Assembly: GCF_002906165.1 (NCBI RefSeq)
Contig: NZ_PPCN01000001.1
Coordinates: forward strand, 310,001 to 374,000
DNA length: 64,000 nt
Direction: 5' to 3'
Source: Roseibium marinum
Lineage (GTDB): Bacteria > Pseudomonadota > Alphaproteobacteria > Rhizobiales > Stappiaceae
The notes under the pieces are model-generated. The model worked only from the letters and a program-made list of their open reading frames with translations. It made no database searches and was not told the origin of the DNA. This document shows positions 9,023-31,770 of this stretch, one piece after another; within the stretch, counting starts at the first letter, position 1, and each line of letters starts with the position of its first letter. The position numbers were made by a program, and so were the translations under genes.

Positions 9023-9038
9023 ATCAAGTTCCGTGCCA
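9023..9038 (-). promoter_or_regulatory. Degenerate sigma-54-like promoter for the 8,972 gene
   Basis: On the minus strand TGGCAC-N5-TTGAT. The -24 element is perfect, but the -12 reads GA in place of the near-invariant GC. No TGT-N10-ACA site was found in the gap. Weak candidate. Confidence 0.3.
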
Positions 9039-9158
9039 TTTCGGGCGCTCTCTCCGGAGCGAATTGGGCGGAAGGGGAATTGTGCGCGATTCTTGCATTG
9101 CGCTGCCCAGGGACAGACCGGACCCGGAACCGGGCCCGAACTTGAAAGGAGAGTGAAC

Positions 9159-10769
9159 ATGCTTGAGATTGCGATCGTTGGTGGCGGCCTGTGCGGTTTG
9201 GCTCTGGCGGAACACTTGCGCCGGGAGGGAAGGGACTTTGCCCTTTTCGAAGCGCGGCCCCGGCTTGGCGGCCGTATTGACTCACAATGGAGTGCGCGTT
9301 CCGGGATGCGTGTCGATCTGGGCCCGGCCTGGTTCTGGCCGGGTGCGCAGCCGATGATTGCCGGTCTCGTCGAAGATCTGGAACTGGCTACCTTCGACCA
9401 GCACGAAACGGGGGAAGTGCTTCATTTACAGGATGTCAACAAGGTTCCGGACGTCCAGACGGCAGCCGTTCACGCCGGCGCCCGGCGGCTCACGGGTGGC
9501 ATGGCCTCGCTGGTGGACGCTCTCGTCGCCCGTCTACCGCAGGAACGTATCCATCTGACGCATGAGCTGGCCAGCGTGAAGGACTGCGGCGACTATGTGC
9601 AACTCTTGTTTCTGCGCGACGGCCAACTCGTCAAGGTAACGGCGCGGACCGTCGTATTGGCGGTGCCGCCGCGTCTGCTGGAAGACCGTGTTCTGTTCGA
9701 GCCGGAGCTTTGCGAGGATGTCCGCACGGCCATGGGCGAAGCGGCCACCTGGATGGCGGGGAGCGCCAAGGTCGTTTTGGGATACGATCGCCCATTCTGG
9801 CGCGACGCCGGACACGCGGGCAATGCATTCGTCAGTCATGGCCAAACGGTTGTCGGGGAAATTTTCGACGCCTGCGATGCGACGGGGAACAAGGCGGCGC
9901 TAGGCGGTTTCCTTGCTCTCGGTCCGGACGATAGGGAGCGGTTCAACATCGGTCTGCCCATGCTCATGGGAAACCAGCTGGCACAGGTTTTCGGGGCCGA
10001 GGCCGAACGGGGCGAGCTTCTCTACCGCGACTGGGCCACGGAACGCCTCACCTGCTCCGCGCGGGATCGCCGCGAACCACCGACCGGCGAGCACGCCGGC
10101 ACCTCCAATCCGCTCCTCCGGCGGTCGCTCTGGGGCGGTAGACTGCATCTCTCCGGATCGGAGACGGCGGCCCGCGGCTGCGGTTATCTGGAGGGAGCGC
10201 TTGAGGCCGCCGCTCACGCTTTGGCAGCTGTCGGAAGCGCAAGGGAGAGTGGCGCAACCGGCGAGCTGTCGGGCAATGCGGCGCAGTTGGCGCAATTCGA
10301 AACCTGGGTTCGAGCGCGGAGTGGTCCGGCCTTCGACAGCTATCGGCGTAACCTGACAGCGCGGTTGTCCGAACAGGAACGCGATCAACTCACCCAGCTG
10401 TCCCTGCTGGAAACCGTGGAGGAGATGCTGGACGAGGCCTTGGTCTATCTGGGAGAGCTCGATTTCGATATTGCGAGAATTCCGGTCGAGAACGGTCGGT
10501 CGGCGTTGATGTCGGACATCCAGTCGCCATTCCGGGATTTTCTGCAAATCCTGATGGACGACGTGATCGCCTTTAATCGAACCTCCTGTGCCCTGTCCAA
10601 CTTCCCCCACGAGCACCAGCTGTCCAACGACTACAAGCAGACGATCCTCAGGGATGTGGCCGCGGCCTGGCGGGCGTTTTCGCTGGCCGCCAATCGCCTG
10701 CTTCTGTCCAAGACGGATGCGCTGGGCGCGGACTTGTCTGGAAGTCATTCAATCGGAAAACTGTCATGA
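9159..10769 (+). CDS. FAD-dependent amine-oxidase-family protein with helical C-terminal extension
   Basis: 536 aa from the ATG at 9159 (AAAGGAGAGTG upstream); the open frame before it is non-coding. Residues 1-40 are a Rossmann FAD site, VGGGLCGLALAEHL..FALFEARPRLGGRI, typical of flavin amine oxidases. The second FAD motif near residues 325-350 is GGRLHLSGSETAARGCGYLEGAL. About 160 mostly helical residues follow that the family usually lacks. Its stop overlaps the Rieske gene start, implying a flavoprotein/Rieske redox pair. The substrate is unknown; it may be an electron-transfer or oxygen-scavenging flavoprotein rather than a true amine oxidase. Confidence 0.85.
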   Translation: MLEIAIVGGGLCGLALAEHLRREGRDFALFEARPRLGGRIDSQWSARSGMRVDLGPAWFWPGAQPMIAGLVEDLELATFDQHETGEVLHLQDVNKVPDVQTAAVHAGARRLTGGMASLVDALVARLPQERIHLTHELASVKDCGDYVQLLFLRDGQLVKVTARTVVLAVPPRLLEDRVLFEPELCEDVRTAMGEAATWMAGSAKVVLGYDRPFWRDAGHAGNAFVSHGQTVVGEIFDACDATGNKAALGGFLALGPDDRERFNIGLPMLMGNQLAQVFGAEAERGELLYRDWATERLTCSARDRREPPTGEHAGTSNPLLRRSLWGGRLHLSGSETAARGCGYLEGALEAAAHALAAVGSARESGATGELSGNAAQLAQFETWVRARSGPAFDSYRRNLTARLSEQERDQLTQLSLLETVEEMLDEALVYLGELDFDIARIPVENGRSALMSDIQSPFRDFLQILMDDVIAFNRTSCALSNFPHEHQLSNDYKQTILRDVAAAWRAFSLAANRLLLSKTDALGADLSGSHSIGKLS

Positions 10770-11197
10770 TGGAAACGCAAACGCACGAGGAGACCCCGTA
10801 TGTCGTCTGCGGTTTGAACGACATCCCGAGCAAGCGGGCCTACGGCTTCTGCCTGATCCGCCTCGACGAGCATGGAACCGAGCAACCCTGGCCAATCGTG
10901 ATCATTCGTTGGGGGCTCCAGGCCTTTGGGTATGTCAACCGCTGCCCGCATGACGGTGTCAATCTGGATTGGGAGCAGGACCAGTTCCTGGATGCCTATG
11001 GCACCCGGCTGATGTGCGGCAAACACGGGGCGCTCTTCGACATTGGAACAGGGGACTGTATCGACGGACCTTGCAAGGGTGAAGGTCTGCAGCCGATCGA
11101 CGTTCGGGTGATCGAAGGCGACATCTGCGTTCTCGGCGTGGAACTGGCCGGCTATGGCGAGGATGGCGAAGAGGCGGGAGCGGACGACACCGAATGA
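10766..11197 (+). CDS. Rieske [2Fe-2S] protein
   Basis: 143 aa. The Rieske ligands are C60-x-H62 (CPHDG) and C84-x2-H87 (CGKHGALF), followed by the GPCKGEGL loop and an acidic tail. It is soluble, with no membrane anchor, so a ferredoxin-type Rieske protein. The ATG overlaps the FAD gene stop (ATGA; a second ATG lies 3 bases on). The likely job is to pass electrons to or from the flavoprotein encoded upstream. A paralogue is at 30,531. Confidence 0.92.
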   Translation: MMETQTHEETPYVVCGLNDIPSKRAYGFCLIRLDEHGTEQPWPIVIIRWGLQAFGYVNRCPHDGVNLDWEQDQFLDAYGTRLMCGKHGALFDIGTGDCIDGPCKGEGLQPIDVRVIEGDICVLGVELAGYGEDGEEAGADDTE

Positions 11198-22554: not shown

Positions 22555-23427
22555 ATGAGTGCTCTTCTTGCCGACGTATCGGACTTGAGCTTCGCGAATG
22601 CGGAAGACACGCTGCCCAGGCTGGCCGATGGGCTACGAGCCGGGCAGGTGGTGCCCTATCTCGGCCCGCAGCTGTTGAGTTCGGACAATCCCGACCTGCC
22701 ATCGACCCCGGAAGCGCTTGCGAAATTCCTCGAAAGCAAGGTGGCTCTGCCTGCCCGCGCCCGCGGCAACGTCTGGGCGGCGGCGCAATATATCGAGAGT
22801 ACCCGGCACCGGGCGACGGTGACGACGTTGATGGCCGAGGCCTTTTCGGTGCCGGCCAAGCCATCCGGGTTGCACCGCATGCTGGCGTCGCTCAACCTGC
22901 CGCTCATCGTCGACAGTTGGTACGATGGCGCCATGCGCTCCGCGCTGCAAGCCACGCAAGGCTGGGGCGAGATCCAGGGGATTACCCGCGCCGGCATCGG
23001 TGAGGACCAGTGGTATCGGTTCTACGACCGGTCCGGTGAAGAAACGGAGGCCGCGGCCGCGGCTGGATGGAAGACCATACTCTACAAGCCGAATGGCGGC
23101 ATCGTTCCGGCGCGCAATTTTCTGATCACCGATGCGGATTATGTCGAGGTTCTGACGGAGATCGACATTCAGACGCCAATTCCGGACATGGTCAAGGACC
23201 GGCGCTCCGACCGTGGCTTCGTGTTCCTCGGCTGCAGGTTCCACGACCAGCTTCTGCGCACTTATGCACGCCAGATCATGAAGCGGTCCACCGGCCCGCA
23301 CTATGCGATCCTTGATCCCGCGGACACTTTGACTCGGAACGAGGTACGCTTCCTGGCGGCACAGGAGATCGTTCCGATTTCCGCGTCGGTCGATACGGCA
23401 GCGGAGATCATGCTGGAAGTGGCTTGA
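22555..23427 (+). CDS. SIR2-like domain protein in nif operon
   Basis: 290 aa from the ATG at 22555, two bases after the nifT stop. The C-terminal block [22 protein letters not shown] and overall layout resemble the SIR2_2 (PF13289-type) fold, but the NAD-binding GAGxS is replaced by YLGPQLLSS, so NAD hydrolase or deacylase activity is doubtful. Last gene of the fdxN operon, followed by a rho-independent terminator. Its role in nitrogen fixation is unknown; assignment by memory of the family. Confidence 0.7.
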
Positions 23428-23478
23428 GGGCAAAGCAAACTGAGGCAAGCCCGGTATCGGGCCAGGTATTGGGAAAAC

Positions 23479-23507
23479 AAACGGCGCGGCTTTGTCCGCG
23501 CCGTTTT
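23479..23507 (+). terminator. Rho-independent terminator of the fdxN-SIR2 operon
   Basis: Stem AAACGGCGCGG / CCGCGCCGTTT, 6-nt loop, T-rich tail (TTTTGCGTTTG), 51 bp after the SIR2-like stop and before the nifB promoter. Confidence 0.85.
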
Positions 23508-23575
23508 GCGTTTGTGTCCGCCTCTTCTTGTCACCGGACAATGGATGTCCGGCATTTACGAAAGACAACAATCTG

Positions 23576-23591
23576 TGTTGGCAAGACGACA
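23576..23591. promoter_or_regulatory. NifA upstream activator sequence 1 for nifB
   Basis: TGT-N10-ACA (TGTTGGCAAGACGACA), 93 bp before the -24 element; tandem with the next site. Confidence 0.8.
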
Positions 23592-23593
23592 GA

Positions 23594-23609
23594 TGTCGGC
23601 AACGGAACA
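23594..23609. promoter_or_regulatory. NifA upstream activator sequence 2 for nifB
   Basis: TGT-N10-ACA (TGTCGGCAACGGAACA), 18 bp downstream of the first site, 75 bp before the -24 element. Confidence 0.8.
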
Positions 23610-23668
23610 CAAGCGGATCATCGAAATAACGATCTGAATTATATAAGTAATTTCACGTTTATTCAATC

Positions 23669-23684
23669 TGGCACGCGAGTTGCT
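23669..23684 (+). promoter_or_regulatory. Sigma-54 promoter for nifB
   Basis: TGGCAC-N5-TTGCT, 61 bp before the nifB ATG; two tandem NifA sites lie upstream. Confidence 0.92.
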
Positions 23685-23744
23685 CAGGTGAACTCAGATT
23701 ACTTTAGAACGGTTACAGCTCAGGCGAACAGCGAGGACGGACGG

Positions 23745-25307
23745 ATGGATACACCGGTACAGCACGACGGCGCGCAAGTCGAAAGCTCCGTTGATTTGGA
23801 AGCGATCATGCAGCAGGCGGCCGAGCACAAGGGATGCGGTACGGACGGCGGCAACAGCAAGCCCAGCTGCGGATCTTCCGCGGGGCAGGGCGACATGCCG
23901 ACCGAAATCTGGGAAAAGGTGAAGAACCACCCCTGCTATAGCGAAGAGGCGCATCATCACTACGCCCGCATGCATGTCGCGGTCGCACCTGCCTGCAACA
24001 TCCAGTGCAACTACTGCAACCGCAAATACGACTGCGCCAACGAATCCCGGCCGGGCGTGGTCAGCGAGCGGCTGACGCCGGAGCAGGCCTCCAAGAAGGT
24101 GCTGGCCGTTGCCTCCACCATTCCACAGATGACTGTGCTCGGCATCGCGGGCCCCGGTGACCCGCTCGCCAATCCGGCGAAAACCTTCAAGACCTTCGAG
24201 CTGATCTCGCAAACGGCTCCCGACATCAAACTCTGCCTGTCGACCAATGGGCTGACGCTGCCGGATCATGTCGACGAGATCGCCAAGTACAATGTCGATC
24301 ACGTGACCATCACCATCAACATGGTTGATCCGGAAATCGGCGCCAAGATCTATCCCTGGGTGTTCTACAAGCACCAGCGCTACACAGGCGTTGAAGCCGC
24401 GCAAATCCTCACCGACCGCCAGCTCCAGGGCCTGGAGATGCTTACCGAGCGCGGCATCTTGTGCAAGGTCAACTCCGTCATGATCCCCGGCGTCAACGAC
24501 CAGCACCTGGTCGAGGTCAACCGGGCGGTGAAGTCGCGCGGTGCCTTCCTGCACAACATCATGCCGCTGATTTCCGCGCCCGAACACGGCACGGTCTTCG
24601 GTCTGAACGGCCAGCGCGGGCCCTCGGCGCAGGAACTGAAGGCGCTGCAGGATTCCTGCGAAGGCGAAATGAACATGATGCGTCATTGCCGCCAGTGCCG
24701 CGCCGATGCTGTCGGTCTTCTCGGGGAGGACCGCAGCGCGGAATTCACCACCGACAAGATCATGGAAATGGAAGTCGACTACGATCTGGATACGCGCAAG
24801 GCCTATCAGGCCCAGGTCGAAGAAGAACGGGTGGCCAAGGTTGCCGCGAAGCAGGAAGAGCTCAAGGCCCTTGCCGGCGAAGTCAGCGACATCAAGGTTC
24901 TTGCTGCCGTGGCGACCAAGGGCTCGGGTTTGATCAACGAGCATTTCGGCCATGCCAAGGAATTTCAGGTTTACGAACTGTCGACCGATGGAGCCAAGTT
25001 CGTCGGCCACCGCCGCGTCGATCTTTACTGCCAGGGTGGCTTTGGCGACGAAGATTCGCTGTCGACGGTGATCCGCGCGATCAACGACTGCCACGCGGTG
25101 TTCGTCTCCAAGATCGGCGGATGCCCGAAGAGCGACCTTCAGGCCGCAGGCATCGACCCGGTCGACCGGTATGCGCACGAATACATCGAGAAGTCGGCGA
25201 TCACCTGGTTCAAGAACTACCTGGAGAGAGTCCGCAGCGGCGAGATCGAGCACATCGAACGGGGCGATGCGGACATCCGACAGGGTGCACTGATCGAGGT
25301 CGCCTGA
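23745..25307 (+). CDS. nifB: NifB, FeMo-co precursor (NifB-co) synthase
   Basis: 520 aa from the ATG at 23745; the frame is open further upstream but crosses the promoter. Radical SAM cluster C84-x3-C88-x2-C91 (CNIQCNYC) and the conserved [26 protein letters not shown] block. The C-terminal ~120 residues are a NifX-like domain ([17 protein letters not shown]). It fuses [4Fe-4S] clusters and inserts carbide to make NifB-co, passed via NifX to NifEN. An N-terminal Gly/Ser/Cys-rich segment is typical of this group. Confidence 0.98.
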
Positions 25308-25346: not shown

Positions 25347-25571
25347 ATGGCTTTCAAGATCATCGCGTCCCAATGCACCAACTGCACGGCTTGTGAGGCG
25401 GAGTGCCCCAATCTGGCGATTTCGGAGAAGGGCGGAACCTTCATCATCGATCCGGAAAAATGCACCGAGTGCATTGGGCACTTCGACTCGCCGCAATGCG
25501 AGGCGGTCTGCCCGGTCGACGATACATGTGTCATCGATCAGAACTTCCCGCGGTATCAGGCCGCGCAATAG
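25347..25571 (+). CDS. 2[4Fe-4S] ferredoxin, second FdxN-type
   Basis: 74 aa. [13 protein letters not shown] and CTEC-x8-C-x3-C match the first fdxN closely ([11 protein letters not shown] versus [11 protein letters not shown]). Directly after nifB, so a likely electron donor to NifB. The SD is AGGAGAGGTG. The paralogue at 21598 is in a separate operon. Confidence 0.95.
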
Positions 25572-25594
25572 GGGCCATGCAACAGGGGACGAAA

Positions 25595-25912
25595 ATGGCT
25601 TTTGAAATCACACCGAAAGCGGAACGGTTCATCCGGATGATGCTGATGTCCGACGGCGGTCCGCAAAGCGGCTTCCGTCTCGCAGTCAGCCCGGGCGGAT
25701 GTTCGGGGCTGAATTCCGACGTCACCGTCATCGACGTGCCAGAGCCCGGTGACGCGGTCGTCGAGCGCAACGGCGTCCGGCTATTCCTGCCGGCGGAAAG
25801 CCGTCTCCTTCTGGACGGCGTGACGATCGACTTCATGGACACTCCGGCGCAGACCGGCCTCGTCTTTCACGATCCCAAGGCAACCGGAACCTGCGCTTCG
25901 CAGGCAGGCTAG
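25595..25912 (+). CDS. HesB/IscA-like protein after nifB
   Basis: 105 aa from the ATG at 25595 (ACAGGGGACG upstream; ATG 25577 possible). A-type carrier fold: FRLAVSPGGCSGLNSDVTVIDVPEPGD. One cysteine in the GGCSG motif is kept, but the C-terminal CxC of canonical IscA is reduced to a single cysteine (ATGTCASQAG), so cluster binding may differ. Likely an Fe-S accessory for NifB. Distinct from the canonical-looking copy at 12190. Confidence 0.85.
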   Translation: MAFEITPKAERFIRMMLMSDGGPQSGFRLAVSPGGCSGLNSDVTVIDVPEPGDAVVERNGVRLFLPAESRLLLDGVTIDFMDTPAQTGLVFHDPKATGTCASQAG

Positions 25913-25936: not shown

Positions 25937-26482
25937 ATGATCGGGCCGGTGGCAGAGGAAAGCAGGTGGATTCCCGCCTCGCAGGATACGATGCTTGCCG
26001 AAAGCCTCTTGGGCGGCGGTCTGCCCCGGGAGGCTGAGCATCATCTCGAACAGGCGGGACTTTCCTATCACCTGGATGAGGTTGCCGAAGCGCATCTGTC
26101 GCAGGCCTTCATGCTTGCGCCCGATCATGCCGCTGTTCTGATCGGTCTCTACCGCTTTTATTTTTACAAGGGGCGCTTGCGCGACGCCCTTCATATCGCC
26201 GGGGTCTGTCTGAAAAAGGCCACGCGTGAAAATAGCCTCCCTGAAGACTGGCGGCAGGTGAAACCCGGTGATGCGGCCTTCGACCGCTACGAGGAGATCC
26301 TGCCGCGCTTTTTTCTCTTCACTCTGAAGGGGTACGCCTATTTGAACATGCGTCTCGGCAACGCCGAGGAAGGCAAGACAGCGGTCCTGAAACTCCTGGA
26401 ACTCGATCCGGGCGACAAGATCGGCGCCAAGGTGCTGCTCGATGTCGCGACAAGGGCGGGGCGCGACGATGACGATGATTGA
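25937..26482 (+). CDS. TPR-like protein of nif cluster
   Basis: 181 aa, all-helical, with TPR-like pairs (AEAHLSQAFMLAPDHAAVLIGLYRFYFYKGRLRDALHIAGVCLKKA and LFTLKGYAYLNMRLGNAEEGKTAVLKLLELDPGD). Acidic C terminus. The SD is GGAGGGAGAG. It overlaps the LRV gene by 14 bases. Probably a protein-interaction adaptor; no enzymatic motif is seen. Confidence 0.8.
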   Translation: MIGPVAEESRWIPASQDTMLAESLLGGGLPREAEHHLEQAGLSYHLDEVAEAHLSQAFMLAPDHAAVLIGLYRFYFYKGRLRDALHIAGVCLKKATRENSLPEDWRQVKPGDAAFDRYEEILPRFFLFTLKGYAYLNMRLGNAEEGKTAVLKLLELDPGDKIGAKVLLDVATRAGRDDDDD

Positions 26483-27242
26483 CGACATCGACGAAGCCGT
26501 CGACTGGAGGGGCAATCCGGTCGATTGCGGCGCATGCGACCATCAGGCGCTGCTGGCGACCGGCAGATGCCAGATCAAGCGCGCCTGCGTTCATGATCGT
26601 TATGCGCGGCGCATCGACCGCTTCTTTGACTGGAATTCGGGTCTTGCCAACGACTATTTGAGCCACCCGCATTTCGAGGTGCGGGCGATCGCTGCCAAGC
26701 GCGCGGATGTGTTCCGCCTGCCGCCGCTGCTCCGCGACAACGAGGAAACCGTTCGCTGGAATGCCGCGCGGCGCCTGCCCAAGCGGTTGATCCTGGACTT
26801 GCGTGCGGATCCGCACCGGGAGGTCCGCATCCGCATCGCCAATCTGCTCGATGACGCGGAACTGGCGCCGATGATGACGGATACGGACTACTATGTCCGT
26901 CTTGTTGTTGCCCGGCGCATAGCCGCGCCCCTGCTGTCACGGATGATGCGCGACGAAGAGGCGGAGGTCCGCCGCGTTGTCGCCCGGCGCATTCCGGAAA
27001 ACTGGCTCACCGGAATGATGAACGATCCCGACGCGTCGGTGCGCTATGACATCGCGCAGCGTCTGCCGCCCGATCTGCTGATCCGGCTCCTGGGCGACGA
27101 GGACTGGCGCGTCCGCTACGAGGTTGCCAACCGGGCGAATGTGGAGCGGATCGGTGACCTCGCCCGGGACGCTGACGATTTGGTGAGAGAGGCCGTTCAG
27201 GCGCGCCTTTCCAGGCCGCTCATTCAGGAGACGTCGATATGA
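26469..27242 (+). CDS. LRV protein with N-terminal 4Fe-4S domain
   Basis: 257 aa from the ATG at 26469. The N-terminal cysteine cluster C-x2-C-x10-C-x5-C (CGACDHQALLATGRCQIKRAC) is followed by about eight leucine-rich-variant repeats (e.g. DYLSHPHFEVRAIAAKRA, DDAELAPMMTDTDYYVRLVVARRIA). This is the architecture of the A. vinelandii LRV protein, also encoded beside nif genes. Precise role unknown. It overlaps the TPR gene and, by ATGA, nifZ. Confidence 0.9.
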   Translation: MTMIDDIDEAVDWRGNPVDCGACDHQALLATGRCQIKRACVHDRYARRIDRFFDWNSGLANDYLSHPHFEVRAIAAKRADVFRLPPLLRDNEETVRWNAARRLPKRLILDLRADPHREVRIRIANLLDDAELAPMMTDTDYYVRLVVARRIAAPLLSRMMRDEEAEVRRVVARRIPENWLTGMMNDPDASVRYDIAQRLPPDLLIRLLGDEDWRVRYEVANRANVERIGDLARDADDLVREAVQARLSRPLIQETSI

Positions 27243-27577
27243 GCAATATCGTACGCGACAGCGACGTCGTGGAGCTTTCCGGACCGCCGATTTACAATTT
27301 CGGCGACAAGGTTCGCGCCAAGCGCACCGTTCGCAACGACGGAACCTATGCCGGCAAGGAGATCGGCGACATCCTCGCGAAGAAGGGCGAGGAGGGCTAC
27401 GTGGTGCACATCGGCACCTTTCTGCAGCAATTCTACATCTACGGCATCGAATTCATGGAAAGCGGCAATCGTGTCGGCATGAAGCGCAAGGAGCTCGAGG
27501 CGGTCCATGCGCCCGAGGACGAGGACATCGATCTGCCATTGCCAGGGAGAGATCGATTGCCAGGGAGACATCAATGA
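27239..27577 (+). CDS. nifZ: NifZ (copy 1), P-cluster maturation
   Basis: 112 aa. NifZ core PIYNFGDKVRAKRTVRNDGTYAGKEIGDILAKKGEEGYVVHIGTFLQQFYIYGIEF. NifZ helps form the second P-cluster of the MoFe protein. Starts on the LRV stop and ends on the start of the second nifZ (ATGA overlap at both ends), so translation is coupled. Confidence 0.94.
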   Translation: MSNIVRDSDVVELSGPPIYNFGDKVRAKRTVRNDGTYAGKEIGDILAKKGEEGYVVHIGTFLQQFYIYGIEFMESGNRVGMKRKELEAVHAPEDEDIDLPLPGRDRLPGRHQ

Positions 27578-27849
27578 GTGACAGCCAGAATCCTTTTATC
27601 GGCAATCTGCCCATCGAACCCAGAACGCCGAAATACGACTGGGGCCAGCGGGTGCGGGCCATGGTCGACCTGCAAAATGACGGCTCCTATCCGGACGCGC
27701 CGGAAGACGCGCTTCTGGTTGCGGTCGGCGATTTGGGCGAGGTCGTCCAGGTGGGGATGCACACCGATACCAACACCCCGGTCTACATGGTCGAATTCGA
27801 TGGGCCGAAGGTGGTCGGCTGCCTCGAAGAAGAGATTTCCCTGGTCTGA
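27574..27849 (+). CDS. NifZ-family protein (copy 2)
   Basis: 91 aa, the same fold as the gene before it: KYDWGQRVRAMVDLQNDGSYPDAPEDALLVAVGDLGEVVQVGMHTDTNTPVYMVEFDGPKVVGCLEEE. The N-terminal 18 residues are unique. The two copies are clearly diverged, so this is an old tandem duplication. Confidence 0.88.
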   Translation: MSDSQNPFIGNLPIEPRTPKYDWGQRVRAMVDLQNDGSYPDAPEDALLVAVGDLGEVVQVGMHTDTNTPVYMVEFDGPKVVGCLEEEISLV

Positions 27850-27864: not shown

Positions 27865-28224
27865 ATGCAAGTCGCCGCGCTGAATTCCCCGTCGCAGATG
27901 CCCGCCGCGCAGCCGAACGAGTTCGACCTGCGCCGGATCGAGCGCGCACTGCAGGACCGGGTCCGCTACCGCTACGTGACGCCGGCGATTATCGGCGTCA
28001 GCGGCGGCTATCGGATCCAGGCGCCGTGCTGTTCCCGCAATGTCGATCCCGAGGGCGGCATCGTGGACATCGCCCTGTTGCTTTTTAACGGCCTGAACGG
28101 CGAATGGCGGCTGTTTGTCAAGGATCACACGCGCCAGAGCTGGGAACTGCACAGTGCCCATTCGCGGCTCCAGGAGTTGCTTGACGATCTGAAGGCGGAT
28201 CCGAACCGGGTGTTCTGGCAGTGA
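27865..28224 (+). CDS. DUF3024-like protein
   Basis: 119 aa. The pattern RVRYRYVTPAIIGVSGGYRIQAPCCSRNVDPEGGIVDIALLLF...WRLFVKDHTRQSWELH matches my memory of DUF3024. Two adjacent cysteines (PCCSRN) are conserved in that family. Function unknown. The SD is weak; a later ATG at 27898 is possible. Confidence 0.7.
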   Translation: MQVAALNSPSQMPAAQPNEFDLRRIERALQDRVRYRYVTPAIIGVSGGYRIQAPCCSRNVDPEGGIVDIALLLFNGLNGEWRLFVKDHTRQSWELHSAHSRLQELLDDLKADPNRVFWQ

Positions 28225-28246: not shown

Positions 28247-28516
28247 ATGACGGTAAATTCGAACGACCTGGCCGAGATCGGGAAAGAACTCACCGCGGCC
28301 GGCGTGGACGGTGCGCTCTTTGCGACCTTGCGGGGAAGGTTTCCCCACTTGTCCTGGACGCGGTGCGATGCGTCGGATGTCGTCGAGGAGCCGTTTCAGA
28401 CCATCGGCGGGTTTGACCTGCATCTCATCGACACGAGAGATCACTGCGTTCACATCGTCAGCGATCCGGAACACGCGACAGGAATTATCCTGGCAACACG
28501 GAGTGCGACGGCATGA
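28247..28516 (+). CDS. Small nif-linked protein, unknown
   Basis: 89 aa: FATLRGRFPHLSWTRCDASDVVEEPFQTIGGFDLHLIDTRDHCVHIVSDPEHATGIILATR. I have a weak memory of such proteins as a DUF (possibly DUF6129) in nif clusters but cannot confirm it. No catalytic motif is visible. Its stop overlaps the DegT gene start (ATGA), so the two are probably made together. Confidence 0.65.
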   Translation: MTVNSNDLAEIGKELTAAGVDGALFATLRGRFPHLSWTRCDASDVVEEPFQTIGGFDLHLIDTRDHCVHIVSDPEHATGIILATRSATA

Positions 28517-29706
28517 GCGAACCCTTGATAGAAGAGATCGAAATCGCCGATCTCGCGGAGGACGCAGGCATCATTCCGCTGTCCGACCCGGACATGACTG
28601 TCGCCGATCTCTCGGCCGTGGACACGGTTCTGCGCTCCCCGTGGATTTCAAACGGGACGGCGGTGGATGCGTTCGAGGATGCCTTTGCCGCGTATCTCGG
28701 CCGGAAATACGCCATTGCCTTTCCCAGCGGGGTGTTTGGCCTGCTGCTCGCCCTGGAGGCGTTGGGGATAGGGCCCGGGGATGAGGTGATTGCATCTTCC
28801 CTTTCCTTCCGCGAGACGGCACATGCCATCAGCGTGCGCGGGGCCCGTCCGGTCTTTGCCGATATCGACTATTGGTCCGGGACGATCGCGGTTGCCAAGG
28901 TCGAGGCCCGCCTCACGGAAAAGACCAGGGCGATCGTTGCCGGCAACACCAACGGCCATCCGGCGCAATGGAGCGAACTGCGCGAATTGGCCGACAAGCA
29001 TGGCATTCCTCTGATCGAGGACTCCACCGAGGCAATCGGCTCGACCTACAAGGGTGCGCCGGTCGGAACCTTCGGGGATTGTTCCATTTTCGATTTCTCG
29101 CAGCCCATGGCGATCACCTGCGGCGAGGGCGGCATGGTGGTAACGGATGACATCGATCTGGCCGTGGTGCTGCGCCGGCGGCGGTCGCACCGTCCGCAAG
29201 ACCGGTCTTCCGTCGTGATCACGGCAACGGCCCCTTATCAGGCGGCCATGAGCGACCTGACTGCCTCACTCGGAATGTCTCAGTTGCAGCGGATCGACGA
29301 GATCCTCGCCAAACGCAAGCAGGTTGAAGCCTTCTACCTCGCGCATGTCGAAACCTTCGAAGGTATCAAGCCGCCCTATATCGGACCCGATATCACGGAC
29401 GTGCACTGGTTCCTGTATGTCGTGCATCTGGGCACGCGTTTTTCCCGCTCCAGCCGGGATGCCATCATCGAGGATCTCAAGGTGGAGCAGGTCGAGGCGT
29501 CCGCCTACAGCTCCCCGCTTCACCTGCAGCGCCATTACTACAATCTCGGGTATCGCCGCGGCGACTATTTCGTCACCGAAAAGGTCGCCGATCGGGCCAT
29601 CGCCCTGCCGTTTCATACCCATCTGGACGAAACCCAAGTCGAATTTCTCGTCGAAACCATGAAGGACGCCTCGATCAACGTTGGGGCCGGTGCGGCGATT
29701 TACTAG
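28513..29706 (+). CDS. DegT/DnrJ/EryC1/StrS-fold protein lacking the PLP lysine
   Basis: 397 aa with the full-length aminotransferase-fold pattern: PWISNGTAVDAFEDAFAAYLGRKYAIAFPSG, EALGIGPGDEVIASSLSFRETAHAI, LIEDSTEAIGSTYKGAPVGTFGDCSIFDFSQ. In family members the catalytic lysine sits in FSxxxxKxITTGEGG; here the aligned stretch is FSQPMAITCGEGG and the position is Met199 (codon ATG at 29107). It is therefore unlikely to be a PLP aminotransferase. The conserved length and coupling to upstream nif genes argue against a pseudogene. Confidence 0.85.
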   Translation: MSEPLIEEIEIADLAEDAGIIPLSDPDMTVADLSAVDTVLRSPWISNGTAVDAFEDAFAAYLGRKYAIAFPSGVFGLLLALEALGIGPGDEVIASSLSFRETAHAISVRGARPVFADIDYWSGTIAVAKVEARLTEKTRAIVAGNTNGHPAQWSELRELADKHGIPLIEDSTEAIGSTYKGAPVGTFGDCSIFDFSQPMAITCGEGGMVVTDDIDLAVVLRRRRSHRPQDRSSVVITATAPYQAAMSDLTASLGMSQLQRIDEILAKRKQVEAFYLAHVETFEGIKPPYIGPDITDVHWFLYVVHLGTRFSRSSRDAIIEDLKVEQVEASAYSSPLHLQRHYYNLGYRRGDYFVTEKVADRAIALPFHTHLDETQVEFLVETMKDASINVGAGAAIY

Positions 29707-29741: not shown

Positions 29742-30047
29742 ATGTCTCTGATTACCGTAATGCCTTCCGGAAAGACCGTCGAAGCGGCGGAAGGAACTTC
29801 TCTGATGCAGGCCATTTCCCAGATCGACGGCGACTTCAAGCACAAGTCGGGCGACACCTGCGATGGCTCTTGTCACCTCTTCCTGCTGGAAGGCCGCAAG
29901 GGCGTTTCCAAAGTTAGCCGTGAAGAGAATGAGAAGCTCGACATGATTGTCGGCGTCGGTTCCAAGTCGCGGCTTGCCTGTCAGGCGACTGTGTTGGGCA
30001 CGGAAGACATCAAGGTCGAAGTGCTGGACTTTGCCTCGGGTTTTTGA
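29742..30047 (+). CDS. Atypical 2Fe-2S ferredoxin-like protein
   Basis: 101 aa, adrenodoxin/Shethna-II-like fold: MSLITVMPSGKTVEAAEGTSLMQAI, CDGSCHLFLLEGRKGVSKVSREENEKLDMI and RLACQATV. Only three ligand cysteines remain (C40, C44, C80). The loop that in adrenodoxin carries the second of the first three cysteines appears deleted, giving C-x3-C-H. Either His45 or another residue completes the cluster, or it binds none. Possible conformational protector or electron carrier. The SD is AAGGAG. Confidence 0.8.
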   Translation: MSLITVMPSGKTVEAAEGTSLMQAISQIDGDFKHKSGDTCDGSCHLFLLEGRKGVSKVSREENEKLDMIVGVGSKSRLACQATVLGTEDIKVEVLDFASGF

Positions 30048-30530: not shown

Positions 30531-30986
30531 ATGCAGGACGATGCGGATCTCTACGTCATTTGCCATAGCGAGGATATCCCGAGCGGAACGGCCAGGGCTT
30601 TCAGCTTGTCGCGTCTGAACGAGGCCGGGGAGAGCCGGCCGTTTCCGGTGGTGATCGTTCACACCGACGCCGATGTTTTTGTCGGCTATGCCAATATCTG
30701 CCCGCACAATCGCCTCTGGCTCAATATCGGCGACGGCGCGTTCTTCAACGACGACAACAGCTTCCTGGAATGTGGCCGGCATGGCGCCCGCTTCGAGATC
30801 TTGTCCGGCCAGTGCGTTACCGGGCCCTGCGCCGGATCGAGCCTGGAACCTGTGCCGCTGATGCTGAGCGATGGCGAGGTCTGCATCTATGGAATCAGGT
30901 TGGCGGAGGACACGCCGTATCCGGATCCCTTTGGGCCTCATGCGGATTATGACGAGACCATGGAAATCATGATCCATCCGGACTGA
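30531..30986 (+). CDS. Rieske [2Fe-2S] protein, second copy
   Basis: 151 aa. Ligands C57-x-H59 (CPHN) and C81-x2-H84 (CGRHGARF), then GPCAGSSLEPV. The layout matches the Rieske protein at 10766, including the opening YVxCxxxDIPSGxARxFSLxRL-like segment and the trailing acidic C terminus, so the two are paralogues. Here no flavoprotein is adjacent. The SD is AGGAAAGGTC. Confidence 0.9.
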   Translation: MQDDADLYVICHSEDIPSGTARAFSLSRLNEAGESRPFPVVIVHTDADVFVGYANICPHNRLWLNIGDGAFFNDDNSFLECGRHGARFEILSGQCVTGPCAGSSLEPVPLMLSDGEVCIYGIRLAEDTPYPDPFGPHADYDETMEIMIHPD

Positions 30987-30990
30987 GGGG

Positions 30991-31302
30991 ATGCCGACCG
31001 AAGATATGAAAGTGTCCCGGGACTGCCGGTATTTTGTGACCTACGCCGGGGTGAAACTGCCTTTTCGTCTGGTCAATCCGATCGATCCGGATAGCTTGTC
31101 CAACCGGAATACCTACATCCGGGCGTATTTCGAGGGTCCGGATATCCTGGTCGGATTCGACAAGGTGGTTTATGGCGAGATCGAGTTATCGCACCGCTAT
31201 ACGTATCACGCCGGGGGTATGTTGAAGCAGGTGGAAATCACCATGCTTGAGGACGACCCGGTCGTTCTCGACTTTGATGAAACCGGGCAACAATCTCGCT
31301 GA
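30991..31302 (+). CDS. Hypothetical protein (possibly DUF6156)
   Basis: 103 aa, four bases after the Rieske stop: CRYFVTYAGVKLPFRLVNPIDPDSLSNRNTYIRAYFEGPDILVGFDKVVYGEIELSHRYTYHAGGMLKQVEI. Beta-rich. I associate this pattern with DUF6156 from memory only. Co-transcribed with the Rieske protein and truncated haemoglobin. Function unknown. Confidence 0.65.
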   Translation: MPTEDMKVSRDCRYFVTYAGVKLPFRLVNPIDPDSLSNRNTYIRAYFEGPDILVGFDKVVYGEIELSHRYTYHAGGMLKQVEITMLEDDPVVLDFDETGQQSR

Positions 31303-31335: not shown

Positions 31336-31770
31336 ATGGCAATGCAGGACGCCGGGCACAAGGGCACGATTTTCGAACACATTGGCGGCGCGGAGGTCAT
31401 CGACCGTCTGGTGGATCTGTTTTATGAGCGGATGGATACGCTTGCGGAAGCAAAGGATATTCGAGCCATACATGCGGCCGATCTCGGTCCGACCAAGGAT
31501 GTCTTGAAGCGCTATCTGTGTGAATGGACCGGCGGACCGAAACTTTATTCGCCGGAGAAAGGCCATCCCCGCCTGCGCCAGCGGCATCTGCACGTCGCGA
31601 TTGGCGAGGCTGAGCGGGATGCCTGGCTTGTCTGCATGCGGGGCGCGCTGGAGGAAGTCATAAGCGACGCCGAGGCCCGCGCCGGACTTTACGAAAACAT
31701 GGCCAAGCTTGCCGACTGGATGCGCAACCAGCCTGGCAATCCGCACGATGCGCGTGGCCAAGCGACCTGA
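31336..31770 (+). CDS. Truncated haemoglobin (group II-like)
   Basis: 144 aa. Globin pattern IFEHIGGAEVIDRLVDLFYERMD...YLCEWTGGPKLYSPEKGHPRLRQRHLHVAIGEAERDAWLVCM. The proximal haem histidine is H84 (in RQRH), and W97 matches the conserved TrpG8 of group II. Likely binds O2 or NO, which would protect O2-sensitive NifA and nitrogenase or handle NO. Last gene of the plus-strand nif block. Confidence 0.9.
   Translation: MAMQDAGHKGTIFEHIGGAEVIDRLVDLFYERMDTLAEAKDIRAIHAADLGPTKDVLKRYLCEWTGGPKLYSPEKGHPRLRQRHLHVAIGEAERDAWLVCMRGALEEVISDAEARAGLYENMAKLADWMRNQPGNPHDARGQAT

Follow-up and report, generated by a model that had tools for sequence, protein, structure and literature searches.

A nif-operon DegT/StrS-fold protein lacking the PLP lysine is a probable accessory of nitrogenase maturation

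GDP-perosamine synthase (PDB entries 3bn1 and 3dr7) and ArnB (1mdo) are the closest solved DegT/DnrJ/EryC1/StrS relatives (PF01041) of the protein described here, which we call DegTx. It resembles GDP-perosamine synthase in fold, length and Asp170, scoring 249 profile bits to 3dr7. Unlike the DegT/StrS aminotransferases, however, it has no PLP lysine, carries Asp194, Gln243 and a GAGxxIY tail, and is encoded in a nif operon. ColD-type PMP dehydratases (2gms, 3gr9), in which a His replaces the Lys, share with DegTx a DegT fold without the PLP lysine, but DegTx is distant from them (130 bits), lacks a His at position 199 and has further PLP-site residues changed. SPTLC1 and GcvPA are fold-type I subunits without the Lys that are paired with a Lys-bearing paralogue. 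They set an example of a fold-type I pseudoenzyme that selection has preserved, but no such paralogue of the DegT kind was found for DegTx in the 104 loci and the window searched.

Neither a study of DegTx or of its small neighbour DUF6129 nor a mutant phenotype of DegTx in diazotrophy was found in the openly licensed literature, as far as its text was available. A nif-linked DegT gene goes unmentioned in the available parts of PMC9769520, PMC8594446, PMC3916325, PMC4101177, PMC10030364 and PMC3093359, and the cluster nifB-orf3-nifZ-nifS-orf4-rhodanese given in the accessible part of PMC3912193 includes no DegT gene. The nif cluster of Bradyrhizobium ORS278 has BRADO5411, a “putative Aminotransferase, DegT/DnrJ/EryC1/StrS family” listed with the ferredoxin BRADO5410 and the NifZ BRADO5414; in the portion of PMC3899966 at hand it is a list entry in which the lost Lys is not mentioned, and from gene order alone it is presumably the DegTx orthologue. 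Databases annotate DegTx orthologues as DegT/DnrJ/EryC1/StrS family aminotransferases, and under such an “aminotransferase” label a conserved nif-operon gene is easily passed over. Two text matches were discarded: Rru_A0933, for which the available text of PMC10927898 evidences no nif link, and “degt” in that of PMC9164220, an author's name and not a gene.

DegTx lies at 28513-29706 on the forward strand of the window, by which we mean the whole 64,000-nucleotide stretch analysed (Roseibium marinum, contig NZ_PPCN01000001.1, positions 310,001 to 374,000); the window genes and sites discussed below with the DegTx operon are on the same strand. A sequence-only reading of this DNA had claimed an intact ORF of 397 residues whose start overlaps the stop of a small upstream gene, and both points hold: the ORF is open, and 4 nt are shared between its ATG and the stop of the gene at 28247-28516. 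The product matches PF01041 with 301 bits over profile positions 4-359 of 360 and so belongs to the DegT/DnrJ/EryC1/StrS fold family. Its AlphaFold2 model (pLDDT 83.6, falling below 50 at residues 1-17 and 227-241 and to about 54 at the tail) finds GDP-perosamine synthase 3bn1 as its best PDB match in Foldseek (E 1.5e-34, TM 0.85). Among the NCBIfam sugar aminotransferase equivalogs PseC, ArnB, DesI and WecE it reaches no curated cut-off, the best score being 239.1 bits for PseC against the 423.5 required. The closest named relative, from Roseibium litorale, is 83% identical. The named set used here, the best 80 of 475 confirmed relatives (64-83% identical), holds orthologues from Bradyrhizobium, Xanthobacter, Azorhizobium, Methylocystis, Nitrospirillum and others, and the family is present in alpha-, beta- and gammaproteobacterial records. 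Bradyrhizobium sp. CCBAU 51765 has two separate DegTx-bearing nif loci on one chromosome (L083 and L141), whose DegTx proteins are 69% and 68% identical to that of the window.

Codon 199 (29107-29109), in the column of the PLP lysine, encodes Met. The sequence-only reading had seen this replacement, and profile alignment supports it: FDFSQPMAITCGEGG aligns with the PLP-lysine motif of GDP-perosamine synthase, and the Met199 column holds Lys in 3dr7 and Ala in 3dr4, a K186A mutant according to its PDB title. By tblastn, position 199 in the best 80 of 475 named relatives is L in 28, S in 27, G in 9, F in 7, V in 6, A in 2 and M in 1, with Lys in none; in the 90 family rows of a joint MAFFT alignment, it is S in 30, L in 28, G in 13, F in 7, V in 6, M in 3, A in 2 and Q in 1, again never Lys. 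One orthologue with an internal stop (L099, 229 aa) is counted in the 80, tblastn aligning across the stop, and left out of the 90; those 90 rows contain one genome twice (L063, L067), and the count of invariant residues uses 89. The Schiff-base Lys of PLP aminotransferases, found in 0/90 family rows, is present in 47/47 other homologues; these are 47 of 49 homologues at E ≤ 1e-15 from loci L001-L066, two identical copies having been dropped, and they are near relatives and no sample of the superfamily, since all were found by searches with DegTx or PF01041. V and A at position 199 in two of them (L014, L017) in the tblastn output are a gap artefact, both having Lys in the MAFFT alignment.

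The loss of the Lys is thus, as far as the alignments tell, a trait of the whole family and not a peculiarity of a single gene. The earlier reading had proposed to see whether Met or another non-Lys residue is conserved in other nif clusters: Lys is absent from all family sequences compared, but Met itself varies, orthologues from the class sample having Gly (L039, L040, L041) and the near relative L063 having Met. The same reading had named Lys in homologues of other nif clusters as evidence against it, and none was seen (0/80, best 80 of 475). The conserved lysines K129, K286, K357 and K384 of the family stand in other columns of the sequence alignment than the catalytic Lys, and the eight kinds of residue accepted at 199 imply that no substitute base has been selected.

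Changes at the PLP site reach beyond position 199. Codon 194 (29092-29094) encodes Asp where one would expect the phosphate-binding Ser that belongs to the FS motif; this column has Asp in 90/90 family rows and Ser in 47/47 other homologues, and column 243 is Gln in 86/90 family rows and Asn or Lys in 40/47 of the others. We take the Ser at 194 and the Asn or Lys at 243, the latter from the second subunit, to contact the PLP phosphate in known structures of the family, and these contact residues are replaced in all (Ser) or nearly all (Asn/Lys) of the DegTx rows. The Asp presumed to face the PLP pyridine nitrogen, D170, is kept in 90/90 rows, and position 99 is aromatic in 87/90. DegTx might still be an enzyme that uses PLP or PMP and works without the Lys, as ColD-type dehydratases do. 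Besides the retained fold, Asp170 and aromatic residue, the titles of PDB entries 4oca and 3nys report Lys-to-Ala mutants of relatives crystallised with PLP, so that loss of the Lys alone is no proof of lost cofactor binding. However, position 199 is never His in the 90 rows, its eight kinds of residue include G, L and F, and the substitutions of Ser by Asp194 and of Asn/Lys by Gln243 run through all or nearly all of the family; we regard such an enzyme as improbable. That DegTx has lost PLP binding we can only infer, because Asp170 and the aromatic residue at 99 are kept, Lys-less relatives hold PLP in crystals, and Glu173 occurs in 11/47 other homologues too and is therefore no mark of such a loss. 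With these residues, DegTx could hardly be an ordinary aminotransferase.

A protein of this fold without the Lys could also be the regulatory subunit of a PLP heterodimer, as SPTLC1 and GcvPA are, with a nearby NifS as one candidate partner. Some alphaproteobacterial clusters, like those of beta- and gammaproteobacteria, do have a nifS-like gene upstream of DegTx and its preceding DUF6129 or NifT gene, and a nifS match occurs in 70/80 named loci (best 80 of 475). NifS, however, belongs to a different subfamily (Aminotran_5, PF00266), and a search at E 1e-6 of 104 loci and the window recovered no Lys-bearing DegT homologue that could act as a paralogous partner, which leaves the heterodimer decidedly doubtful in our eyes.

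In a careful tree, 24 representatives of the DegTx family set against the 47 other homologues form one clade with support 100/100, and one change is enough; a quick tree returns the same single clade on a stem of 1.26 changes per site. Against R. litorale, DegTx has a dN/dS of 0.121, ten nearby genes of the nif region ranging from 0.074 to 0.229, and by this estimate it is under purifying selection. Its C-terminal tail, NVGAGAAIY (residues 389-397, 29677-29703), is conserved: the I396 and Y397 of the GAGxxIY pattern are found in 89/89 family rows and 0/47 other homologues. Many residues vary little or not at all among family members yet seldom occur in the other homologues, N145, D194, P198, K286, R309, F310, I396 and Y397 among them. 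The internal stop of the Bradyrhizobium pachyrhizi orthologue (L099) might hint at a gene that is decaying or mis-called, but this is scarcely credible given that the ORF is open to its end in the other 79/80 named loci (best 80 of 475), that dN/dS is 0.12 and the tail invariant, and that conservation spans alpha-, beta- and gammaproteobacterial records.

Gene order is equally constant. In 80/80 named loci (best 80 of 475), nifZ, nifZ, an optional DUF3024 gene, DUF6129 and DegTx follow one another on one strand, the fixed place in a nif operon that one expects of an accessory gene; within this same set, the DUF3024 gene is found in 75/80 loci and missing in 5, and DUF6129 and DegTx overlap by 4 nt in 66/80, a count that takes whichever start codon is closest to the DUF6129 stop and so favours short overlaps. 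One gammaproteobacterial and two betaproteobacterial plasmids (L163-L165) have an annotated order of nifZ, nifZ, DUF3024 or hypothetical, class-V aminotransferase/cysteine desulfurase (420 bp in L164), nifT, hypothetical and DegTx. A SIR2-family gene lies 3′ of DegTx, directly or two genes on, in two of these plasmid clusters, one gamma- and one betaproteobacterial (L163, 13767-14609; L165, 13154-13996), and a SIR2-like ORF was recognised by eye 3′ of DegTx in L177.

The tie to nifZ is seen in whole genomes as well; in the large class and phylum samples, DegTx was scored on at most the best four candidates per genome. Of 385 genomes sampled from the class, 12 were found to have nifZ; DegTx occurs in 4/4 genomes with tandem nifZ, 0/8 with a single nifZ and 0/373 without nifZ (Fisher p 0.002 for tandem nifZ among the nifZ genomes), and the other 21 above-threshold matches carry the Lys. 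In a genus sample of 45, DegTx is in 2/2 nifZ genomes and 0/43 others. That nifZ and DegTx counts (class), like DUF6129 and DegTx counts (phylum), refer to the same genomes we infer from equal sample sizes and shared genome labels. With 8/12 nifZ genomes of the class sample lacking it, DegTx is not generally required by nitrogenase. The family member G538 (L171/L177) is an exception to the tandem-nifZ rule: one nifZ was found there, and NifT stands upstream of DegTx in place of DUF6129. Only 2/45 genomes of the genus have nifZ, that of the window included, which suggests a rare and perhaps acquired nif cluster. Herbaspirillum seropedicae has both nifZ and nifZ1, as stated in the available part of PMC3093359.

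The small gene that overlaps DegTx (28247-28516, 89 aa, AlphaFold2 pLDDT 87.5) had been called unknown, a label that no longer fits, since it matches Pfam DUF6129 (PF19624) with 25.2 bits, above the gathering cut-off of 23.6. It has no NCBIfam match, and its PDB matches stay at E 0.06 or worse by profile and, for its model, at E 1.2 or worse by fold. The link to DegTx proposed earlier is strong: DUF6129 is directly upstream in 80/80 named loci (best 80 of 475), but the pairing is not obligate, as DUF6129 occurs without DegTx in the nifDK-type operons L178-L180. PF19624 is an insensitive profile, finding 5/398 genomes of a phylum sample against 6/398 for DegTx, with two shared; a DUF6129-like ORF just 5′ of DegTx in G661 was spotted only by eye. 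Over 40 aligned rows Cys40, Asp44 and Cys67 are invariant and Asp41, His59 and His66 nearly so, and DUF6129 is possibly a small metal-binding Nif protein.

Upstream in the window, the listed nifB ORF (23424-25307; related clusters annotate nifB at the same place) is followed by an fdxN-like 4Fe-4S ferredoxin (25347-25571; CxxCxxC motif, its L163 counterpart annotated “4Fe-4S binding protein”), an IscA/HesB-like protein (25595-25912, its start picked by eye within ORF 25403-25912; PF01521, 43.3 bits over 25601-25912), a TPR protein (25937-26482; PF14559, 29.7 bits), an LRV-FeS4 protein (26442-27242; PF05484, 92 bits), two nifZ copies (27239-27577 and 27574-27849; PF04319, 107.7 and 92 bits) and a DUF3024 protein (27865-28224; PF11225, 68 bits). 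The sequence-only reading had put the small gene downstream of tandem nifZ; the order is right, but the DUF3024 gene intervenes. From nifB through the DUF3024 gene, all lie on the DegTx strand with gaps below 40 nt, and nifB to DegTx would form one operon. Directly 3′ of DegTx is a gene for a 2Fe-2S ferredoxin-like protein (29742-30047; fdx_isc 50.8 bits and PF00111 19.6 bits with a cut-off of 21, both sub-threshold).

A site at 23669-23684 matches the sigma54 -24/-12 pattern applied here exactly, and the true nifB start is presumably downstream of this promoter. Two NifA upstream activator sites (TGT-N10-ACA) start at 23576 and 23594 (23576-23609). The sigma54 pattern is enriched in the window (7 found, 1.97 expected; 0/100 shuffles reach 7), and with at most one mismatch no second site appears between 23669-23684 and DegTx. 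The NifA sites are by number not above chance (9 found vs 5.9 expected, 13 shuffles reaching 9); it is their location ahead of sigma54 sites, and only that, which speaks for them. Three other searches remained at chance level and were dropped: a sigma54 pattern with an incorrect spacer, N5 after CACG (5 found vs 5.7 expected), terminator-like sites (6 vs 5.4) and sigma70-like sites (1 vs 1.7). The nif region also holds two Rieske-type proteins (30531-30986 and 10766-11197; PF00355), one of whose genes adjoins DUF6156 (30991-31302) and a truncated haemoglobin (31336-31770), and a flavin amine-oxidase-like ORF (9033-10769; PF01593).

The sequence-only reading had claimed a full-length, nif-coupled and altered fold, and this stands in so far as the catalytic position is altered and the gene intact, conserved and nif-coupled; the roles it offered as examples (chaperone, scaffold or ligand sensor) are hypotheses. 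We consider it reasonably probable that DegTx is a PLP-independent pseudo-aminotransferase recruited once as an accessory of nitrogenase maturation. A sugar-aminotransferase scaffold of the DegT/StrS family (fold-type I) would have lost the Schiff-base Lys and further PLP-site residues a single time, in the ancestor of the nif-specific clade, and purifying selection would then have kept the protein as an accessory factor. Its translation is apparently coupled to that of DUF6129, from a nifB operon that would be driven by NifA and sigma54. DegTx probably acts as a homodimer, in the manner of a scaffold or chaperone, and may bind a small ligand or a partner through its rebuilt pocket and its invariant C-terminal tail. 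NifZ is known for its part in the maturation of the P-cluster of the MoFe protein, and the tie of DegTx to nif genes, above all to the second nifZ, is our reason to place it at or near the stage at which the two NifZ proteins would act. The dimer, the partner to be bound and this stage of maturation are all put forward here as proposals.

On another reading, DegTx is chiefly a sensor or carrier whose old active site would bind a small molecule from the pathway, be it homocitrate, some nucleotide sugar or an intermediate with bound metal. The polar residues N145, H149, D194 and C203 vary little or not at all within the family and are less frequent or rare in other homologues, we expect their motifs to line the active site, and genes of the cofactor pathway are close by (nifB and nifQ in the window, nifV in L164). 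Cys203, however, is missing in 5/90 rows, and a cavity shared by these polar residues is presumed from sequence; we hold this sensor or carrier to be unlikely. A bolder version of the accessory role, speculative and rather unlikely, would turn the former PLP pocket into a binding site for a cofactor or P-cluster intermediate (a metal-sulfur precursor or homocitrate) through the same N145, H149, D194 and C203, with the GAGxxIY tail docking DUF6129, NifZ or the MoFe protein; DegTx would then be a new kind of Nif metallochaperone, derived from a sugar aminotransferase.

Taken as a whole, the nif-operon protein DegTx probably aids nitrogenase assembly in some way other than as an aminotransferase. 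Should it take part in MoFe maturation, it would be one more factor for the parts list of nitrogen-fixation engineering, and through its tie to the duplicated nifZ one could ask directly, by genetics, why some diazotrophs have two NifZ proteins.
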